A DNA stretch of 35,042 nucleotides from assembly GCA_030429925.1 (NCBI GenBank), contig JAUIGQ010000013.1, positions 1 through 35,042 of the forward strand, given 5' to 3'. Below the pieces are notes generated by a model. That model did no database searches. It was not told the origin of the DNA and saw nothing but the letters and a program-made list of their open reading frames with translations. Of the stretch, positions 17,364 through 19,049 are shown in pieces. The position numbers and the translations under genes were made by a program. Every line of letters begins with the position of its first letter. Position 1 is the first letter of the stretch. The stretch is from Bacteroidia bacterium. GTDB lineage: Bacteria; Bacteroidota; Bacteroidia; Flavobacteriales_E; Vicingaceae.

Positions 17364-17384
17364 GTACCCTTTTGGGTACATTTG
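17364..17384 (+). promoter_or_regulatory. promoter -7 element overlapped by an inverted repeat, upstream of the mini-lipoprotein and ytxJ
   Basis: TACATTTG at 17377-17384 is an exact TAnnTTTG -7 element. The inverted repeat GTACCC-TTTT-GGGTAC (17364-17379) overlaps its first three bases, a geometry expected of a repressor operator. No good -33 TTTG is visible at the expected distance. The predicted transcription start, around 17388-17391, favours translation from the ATG at 17409 over the one at 17394. Confidence 0.5.
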
Positions 17385-17408
17385 TCGTAGAGTATGAAAA
17401 ATCAAAGA

Positions 17409-17534
17409 ATGAAAAAGTTATCTGTTATCCTTGCCTTGACCTTTGTGTTAGCTTCGCTTTTCTCGTGTAAGTCTCATCAGAAATGCGCTGCATACAGTAA
17501 GGCAGATATAGAGAATACTCAAAAGCCTTGCTAA
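17409..17534 (+). CDS. very small Cys-terminated lipoprotein upstream of ytxJ
   Basis: A 41-codon frame beginning MKKLSVILALTFVLASLFSC, a textbook lipoprotein signal peptide with lipobox LFSC (Cys20). After processing only 22 residues would remain. They contain three cysteines: the lipidated first residue, an internal one in QKCAAYS, and the very last residue (PC then stop). A second in-frame ATG at 17394 would add five residues, but it sits only 9 bases past the -7 box, and the A-rich stretch before 17409 suits Bacteroidota initiation. The stop TAA (17532-17534) is followed immediately by the ytxJ ATG at 17535, so translation is probably coupled. Small lipoproteins with a CxAY-like tail occur in Bacteroidota without known function. 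The link to thiol redox is inferred from the neighbour and the cysteines. Confidence 0.72.
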   Translation: MKKLSVILALTFVLASLFSCKSHQKCAAYSKADIENTQKPC

Positions 17535-17873
17535 ATGAATTGGCAGTCCCTTTCTTCCGAAGGGGATTTTGAGCAAATCCTCCAATCTTCTCAATCTCGC
17601 ACCCAAGCAATCTTCAAGCATTCAACTCGCTGTGGTATTAGTGCTATGGCAAAGTATAGGGTTGAAGGTGATTGGGGAAAGAAGAACCCCGATACCCCGA
17701 TCTATCTTTTGGATCTTATCCAGCATAGAGACTTAAGTGATCTTATAGCTCAAAGATTGGAAGTTCATCATGAATCTCCACAATTGATCTTGGTTAGAAA
17801 TGGCAAAGCCATTTTCAATTCTTCACATATATCAATCTCTTCCTCCTCAGCAGCTAAGCATATTCAAAAATGA
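17535..17873 (+). CDS. ytxJ: YtxJ-type monothiol bacilliredoxin
   Basis: A 112-residue thioredoxin-fold protein of the YtxJ family. The motif KHSTRCGIS places the single active-site Cys at residue 33; many members have Pro where Gly34 stands here. SPQLILVRNGKAIF is the cis-Pro segment with the following strand, as in other thioredoxin-like proteins. YtxJ proteins are associated with bacillithiol and are thought to reduce bacillithiolated proteins in the cytoplasm, so this implies the organism makes bacillithiol. The genes for its synthesis are not in the window. It begins on the base after the stop of the mini-lipoprotein and overlaps the convergent OsmC gene by 20 bases at the 3' end. Confidence 0.88.
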   Translation: MNWQSLSSEGDFEQILQSSQSRTQAIFKHSTRCGISAMAKYRVEGDWGKKNPDTPIYLLDLIQHRDLSDLIAQRLEVHHESPQLILVRNGKAIFNSSHISISSSSAAKHIQK

Positions 17874-18302: not shown

Positions 18303-19049
18303 TTGAAGAAATTATTAGTAGTTGTTATTTCTGTCTTCATTTCATTCTTTTCATATGGACAAGAAACCATATTTGAAGAGACTACTACTATTTATGCAAA
18401 TGAGACTTCCGGAGGAATAGGAATTCATACCAATGGATTCATGGGAACCTTTAGGTATGGAAAGTACCTGACAGGATTTTCCAAGAGGATCTATGAAATT
18501 GAAATAGGGAATATCAAGCATCCCAAAGAGATCAAAAGTATCAACCCCTTTGAGAATGATGTAAGAGGATATGTCTTTGGTAAGTTGAACTACTTCTATG
18601 TTGTTCGACCAAGCATCGGATATCACAAAGTATTTATTCCAAAGCAGTCGATAAAGGGAGTATCAGTTACCTACGTCGCTCATGGAGGACTTTCCCTTGG
18701 CTTGGCAAAACCTGTTTATTTGAACATTCAGGAAGAAGAGGAAGGAACCAATAATAAGATCATAGTAAGAAGGAAATACGATCCTGATAAGCATGATCAA
18801 GGAGATATTTATGGAAGAGCCTCCTTCTTGAATGGCATGGATGAGATCCGCTTATATCCTGGTTTGTTTGGAAAGTTTGGATTGCATTTCGATTATGGAC
18901 AGAGAAGAGAATCCTTAAGATCTGTTGAGGTGGGTATTAAAACTGATGTTTATCTGGAGGATATACCAATAATGGCCTTTACTGACAATAACCCCTATTT
19001 TCTCAACCTCTATCTTGAGATATTTTTTGGGTCGAGAAAAGTTGAGTAG
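18303..19049 (+). CDS. predicted outer-membrane beta-barrel protein, unknown function
   Basis: A 248-residue exported protein with signal peptide MKKLLVVVISVFISFFSYGQ and alternating beta-strand character throughout (for example GGIGIHTNGFMGTFRYGKYL, and later FGKFGLHFDYG and LNLYLEIFFG). This fits a small outer-membrane barrel of the kind common and unassigned in Bacteroidota. The start codon is TTG: there is no in-frame ATG between it and the stop at 18279, and the -7 box upstream agrees. A charged insert (about 140-165, EEEEGTNNK to KHDQGD) probably forms an external loop. No enzyme motif is visible. It is followed by a 124-base gap before the T9SS cargo gene. Confidence 0.72.
   Translation: MKKLLVVVISVFISFFSYGQETIFEETTTIYANETSGGIGIHTNGFMGTFRYGKYLTGFSKRIYEIEIGNIKHPKEIKSINPFENDVRGYVFGKLNYFYVVRPSIGYHKVFIPKQSIKGVSVTYVAHGGLSLGLAKPVYLNIQEEEEGTNNKIIVRRKYDPDKHDQGDIYGRASFLNGMDEIRLYPGLFGKFGLHFDYGQRRESLRSVEVGIKTDVYLEDIPIMAFTDNNPYFLNLYLEIFFGSRKVE

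Follow-up and report, generated by a model that had tools for sequence, protein, structure and literature searches.

The question raised by this locus is what a lipopeptide of 22 residues might do when it is encoded flush against the gene for a cytoplasmic bacilliredoxin. The window, that is, the whole stretch of 35,042 nucleotides analysed here (contig JAUIGQ010000013.1 of a Bacteroidia bacterium, positions 1 to 35,042), carries on its forward strand a short open frame (17394-17534) whose TAA stop codon (17532-17534) abuts the ATG of ytxJ at 17535. The original prediction, made from the letters of the window, described this frame as having a signal peptide, a lipobox, an exact -7 promoter element and a TAAATG junction with ytxJ, all of which are present as described, and proposed that the product is an envelope thiol sensor or a substrate working with YtxJ. 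Annotation often overlooks small lipoproteins, several of which have recently proved to be working subunits of envelope machines.

The frame is open over the entire predicted span, but its start has to be moved. Comparison with relatives places the conserved start of the lipoprotein at ATG 17409 rather than at 17394, because the relatives begin at MKK, and a relative from the same genus (L004) has no ATG at the position that corresponds to 17394. Furthermore, ATG 17394 would be nearly leaderless if transcription starts a few bases past the -7 element, which also favours 17409. The gene accordingly spans 17409-17534 on the forward strand (41 codons and the stop), and its product consists of a 19-residue signal peptide, MKKLSVILALTFVLASLFS (17409-17465), and a 22-residue mature peptide, CKSHQKCAAYSKADIENTQKPC. 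The -7 element, TACATTTG (17377-17384, forward strand), is of the Bacteroidota type (TAnnTTTG) and recurs across the GTDB family of the window, with TAnnTTTG present no more than 70 nt from the lipoprotein start in 28 of 30 loci, compared with 1.8 expected from shuffled sequences.

The conservation of the frame was assessed by searching the GTDB family with the YtxJ protein alone, so that the lipoprotein was not assumed. YtxJ is present in 42 of the 46 genomes of the family, and all 30 loci that were fetched (the window and 29 relatives) have a lipoprotein frame of about 41 codons immediately before ytxJ, so the conservation in close relatives on which the original prediction depended is found throughout. 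Among pairs of equal length, pN is below pS in 131 of 136, which is indicative of purifying selection; dN/dS has a median of about 0.29 among the unsaturated pairs and lies at 0.03-0.3 in the closest ones, and the window and its same-genus relative differ by a dN of 0.13 and a dS of about 2. On these comparative grounds, the frame is a gene selected for its product, and that it is a real gene appears virtually certain. The possibility that it is spurious or a pseudogene, to which its very small size and the lack of a database family match would lend some credence, has next to no chance of being correct given the conservation in 30 of 30 loci, the excess of pS over pN, the retention of the promoter and the wide distribution.

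The product is, with high confidence, a lipoprotein processed by signal peptidase II, as judged from MKK, the hydrophobic core and LFSC in the window, and from the conservation of the hydrophobic core and the lipobox among relatives. In the alignment of 29 of the 30 ytxJ-selected loci (A2), seven positions are invariant, namely, K3, S19, C20, K21, C26, A28 and Y29, so that S-C-K is retained at the lipobox without exception; the lipobox pattern is also shared by 134 relatives, a number that is partly built in by the pattern used for parsing. Three cysteines are indeed present in the mature peptide, as the original prediction held, but the first of these (17466-17468, mature position +1) is the one predicted to be acylated, which leaves at most two free thiols. 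The second cysteine (17484-17486, mature position 7) lies in a C[PA]AY core and is invariant in A2 as well as in all 30 ytxJ-selected loci, among which this residue, Cys26, is the only conserved one with a free thiol. Thus, the expected conservation holds for the lipobox and the internal cysteine. It does not extend to the C-terminal cysteine (17529-17531), which is the last residue in L003 and L004, both from the genus of the window; elsewhere in the GTDB family, the terminal residue is mostly Ser, Ala or Val, and we therefore rejected the terminal cysteine as a family feature, its occurrence being confined to these two members of one genus.

Among 134 distinct sequences, the spacing between the two conserved cysteines is 5 residues in 117, 6 in 13 and 4 in 3, and the mature length varies between 16 and 31 residues (median 22), with a variable tail past position 12. 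That Cys7, Ala9 and Tyr10 seem invariant in this set is in part a product of the search and parsing patterns, which contain CxAY, and the ytxJ-selected loci are the unbiased set by which invariance is to be judged. Conservation is essentially limited to the ten residues that adjoin the lipid (C-K-S-H-x-[KRT]-C-[PA]-A-Y-[SG]-K), and the family signature can be written as acyl-Cys-x5-Cys-[PA]-A-Y-[SG]-K. In the AlphaFold model, residues 2-21 form a helix that covers the signal peptide, and the mature part, with a pLDDT of about 58, shows no fold; the mature part is thus predicted to be unstructured, and a peptide of this length probably does not fold by itself.

The family is widespread in the class. 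Among the matches listed, strong hits to the A2 profile were found in 136 of 247 Bacteroidia genomes; weak matches were left out because signal peptides also score against the profile. A sample taken across the phylum comprised 148 genomes, the share of other classes in it being unstated; all of its matches at E <= 1e-4 came from the same class, although confinement of the family to Bacteroidia is not thereby proven. A pattern scan of named genomes, mostly MAGs, identified loci in Flavobacteriales, Vicingaceae, Crocinitomicaceae, Sphingobacteriaceae and Bacteroidales. The lipoprotein has no match above the cut-off to any Pfam, NCBIfam or PDB family; among PDB chains, only chance matches to photosystem PsbL helices were obtained, with E above 5, and the open-licence literature yielded no paper that describes the family. 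The best weak NCBIfam match is the PG1828 family lipoprotein (NF050142), also a small Bacteroidota lipoprotein with a similar signal peptide, but the best match, 25.6 bits in a relative, covers little beyond the signal peptide and the lipobox; with 14.8 bits for the window protein and a cut-off of 50, membership was rejected. We therefore consider this an unnamed family of a known kind, the small envelope lipoproteins, that appears to combine an unusual, minimal design with recurrent coupling to a bacilliredoxin. A family that has spread this widely in a large bacterial class, that is absent from Pfam and NCBIfam, and that combines a single conserved thiol, seven residues from the lipid, with coupling to a redox gene merits attention.

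The downstream gene (17535-17873, forward strand) is a clear member of the YtxJ/BrxC family of monothiol bacilliredoxins (TIGR04019, 117.1 bits against a cut-off of 77.25; PF11009, 117 bits against 24.2), with a monothiol active site in which the single cysteine of the protein lies in STRCGIS; the lipoprotein itself is no member of this family and occurs also without YtxJ. At its 3' end, ytxJ overlaps the convergent osmC gene by 20 bases (17854-17873). The positions of the lipoprotein, YtxJ and Ung were compared in the same 247 class genomes. Lipoprotein and ytxJ are both present in 82, and in 38 of these, from 15 GTDB families, the lipoprotein is directly upstream of ytxJ, always on the same strand; chance adjacency is estimated to account for essentially none of the 82. 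A cultured relative, Acidiluteibacter ferrifornacis S-15 (L072), has the pair as well. This linkage to ytxJ is meaningful in evolutionary terms. The neighbour found most often beside the lipoprotein is ung, the gene for uracil-DNA glycosylase (PF03167; 16616-17302, reverse strand, in the window), which is adjacent in 89 of 107 genomes that list both, always divergently. The Ung protein of the window looks unusual in having a Pro-to-Thr replacement in the active-site motif; the Ung of L137 has the usual GQDPYH.

The combinations of these neighbours are varied. Ung, the lipoprotein and ytxJ occur together in 23 genomes. In 15 genomes, the lipoprotein adjoins ytxJ but no listed ung; in 26, it adjoins ung, and ytxJ lies elsewhere; and in about 39, it adjoins ung, and no PF11009 gene is detected (40 genomes without a listed PF11009 match minus G196, whose weak match was unlisted). 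Several of the genomes in this last group are 99-100% complete (for example, G045, G048, G060 and G074). Loci without ytxJ also tend to have, on the far side, three further genes: one for OsmC, one for LipA, and one for a homologue of the protein encoded at 18303-19049 in the window. This window gene (forward strand) encodes a secreted protein of 248 amino acids that belongs to no database family and is possibly a small outer-membrane barrel; of the loci without ytxJ, 25 contain a homologue of it together with ung, the lipoprotein, OsmC and lipA.

The junction between the two genes is tight. In 75 of 79 loci, a set that includes a few genomes fetched twice, the lipoprotein stop and the ytxJ start are separated by -8 to +10 nt; the ytxJ start was taken as the in-frame start nearest to the stop that gives a YtxJ-like N-terminus, a rule that leans towards short spacing. 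In the family of the window, 21 of 29 loci have a ytxJ that opens with TTG or GTG, the window's own ATG notwithstanding, whereas ytxJ genes without a preceding lipoprotein mostly start with ATG, in a raw contrast that ignores kinship; outside the family, adjacent lipoprotein-ytxJ pairs mostly start ytxJ with ATG as well. These spacings and start codons fit termination-reinitiation, and ytxJ is probably translationally coupled to the lipoprotein. The short frame could then be a leader cistron, the translation of which delivers ribosomes to ytxJ, the product being secondary. We see little chance that this is the main role of the gene, even with the close spacing and the frequent TTG and GTG starts in the family in its favour, because purifying selection on the amino acids and persistence without ytxJ imply that the product itself is selected; moreover, ytxJ starts with ATG in the window, and the start-codon contrast takes no account of relatedness.

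The same body of data bears on the original proposal that the lipopeptide is an envelope thiol sensor or a substrate dedicated to the cytoplasmic YtxJ. The linkage part of this proposal stands: the two genes are coupled across the 15 GTDB families with near-zero spacing and a constant orientation, the pair is kept together in the 15 genomes away from a listed ung, and the second cysteine is invariant. The dedicated role does not follow. The lipoprotein is retained beside ung in genomes in which ytxJ is undetected or located elsewhere, and such a role is therefore unlikely; in addition, the two products are predicted to reside on opposite sides of the inner membrane, and ytxJ genomes without a recognisable upstream copy are common. 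Taken with all of this, the dedicated role is quite improbable, and a function independent of YtxJ is likely on the comparative evidence; the internal cysteine being conserved, the product may still have a role that involves an envelope thiol. BshC, detected in 230 of the 247 class genomes, is no guide to whether a genome has the lipoprotein. The window's own genome (G000) gives no match to BshC (PF10079) despite carrying ytxJ, nor to LptD_2 (PF19838), both of which may be explained by the incompleteness of the assembly (93.5%).

Among known systems, the nearest functional analogue is LptM (YifL; PF13627, NF047847), a small lipoprotein of the LPS translocon. LptM is an outer-membrane lipoprotein that acts through its first ten mature residues, which are the ordered and conserved part (PMC12644819; PMC10567701). 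It shares with the family described here its tiny size class and the confinement of conservation to about ten residues after the acylated cysteine (PMC12644819). The two differ in that the tail of LptM is longer, whereas our lipoprotein has the conserved cysteine at mature position 7 and is linked to ung and ytxJ rather than to lpt genes. By analogy, the acylated decapeptide might be a clip that intercalates into an outer-membrane barrel (the LptD of Bacteroidota, for instance) and directs how that barrel is assembled or oxidised. Of 13 family genomes, 11 contain LptD_2 (PF19838), and the short K-[GC]-P-x-Y resemblance of the lipoprotein to the LptM motif is, presumably, a further lead, if only a lead. 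Nevertheless, we know of no second conserved cysteine in this segment of LptM; no linkage to lpt genes was seen; and membership in the LptM family was rejected, with PF13627 missing the locus in the profile search of its own genome (the best match in the genome, 14.5 bits, lies elsewhere; cut-off 27.3) and the NCBIfam LptM model scoring far below the cut-off on the relatives. The absence of the classical LptD (PF04453) from 31 family genomes, which could be counted against such a clip, is uninformative because genomes of the window's family carry PF19838 instead. On balance, a clip of this type is improbable.

The reading that we favour, with roughly even prospects of being right as a whole, is that the product is a lipid-anchored peptide of about ten residues that faces the periplasm and engages its conserved thiol in an intermolecular disulfide. 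It probably works in the envelope rather than as a helper of YtxJ. The surface-export (LES) motif of Bacteroidota lipoproteins, defined as K-(D/E)2 (PMC5080379), is absent in this form, and in the form Q-A-(D/E)2, after the +1 cysteine in CKSHQKC, and the want of a K-(D/E)2 surface signal makes the periplasmic face of the outer membrane the somewhat favoured location of the protein. Since so short a peptide would probably not fold by itself, its most likely mode of action is to bind a partner at the membrane surface. The juxtamembrane decapeptide would dock either onto an envelope protein or onto another copy of the peptide, and this contact would be fixed by an intermolecular disulfide of Cys26, as a single conserved cysteine in an oxidising compartment suggests. 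That Cys26 is disulfide-bonded in use seems to us plausible, if somewhat short of an even chance, and docking specifically onto an outer-membrane complex is doubtful. The coupling would coordinate production of the lipoprotein and YtxJ, with no action of the latter on the former; probably, the same thiol or oxidative conditions call for both proteins. Alternatively, Cys26 may bind a metal, or its conservation may have some other cause.

A precedent for lasting disulfides exists in the gliding motility and type IX secretion machinery of Bacteroidota, where SprF/PorG and GldK form stable intermolecular periplasmic disulfides (PMC12635249). The likeness consists in a conserved cysteine in an envelope protein of Bacteroidota; the difference is that SprF/PorG employs twin-Cys motifs in larger outer-membrane proteins, in contrast to the one conserved cysteine in a lipopeptide of 22 residues. 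If our reading were extended to the entire class, the decapeptide lipoproteins would be an outer-membrane component with one essential thiol that forms a lasting disulfide either with a second copy or with a barrel protein; in many lineages, its expression would be linked to bacillithiol repair. We put this generalisation forward as speculative and, at present, unlikely.

Variants of the lipoprotein are also encountered. Of the genomes that carry ytxJ and give no strong lipoprotein match, 20 from as many GTDB families were compared; in 5 of these, a diverged form, C-x(3-6)-C-P-[AS]-[YF], is encoded upstream of ytxJ (L181, L188, L194, L195 and L196), so that the family extends beyond what the profile detects. 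Tandem lipoprotein copies precede ytxJ in several loci (L039, L162-L164, L181 and L188; G284, G259, G247 and G161), often as one typical and one diverged copy, for example, CRSMGYCPAYAIELIVK followed by CRSHERCPAYGKIDQEKAEKSV. In L181, L186 and L196, longer lipoproteins are found at the same place upstream of ytxJ, with a Cys-rich start followed by a basic tail that contains GLMDPKM, GLFPKG or NLFPKKM; these possibly represent a second, related type. In L059 (1501-1938), a member of the family (CKSHELCPAYGK) is extended by a run of imperfect repeats that resemble TPGASALTPGARPS.
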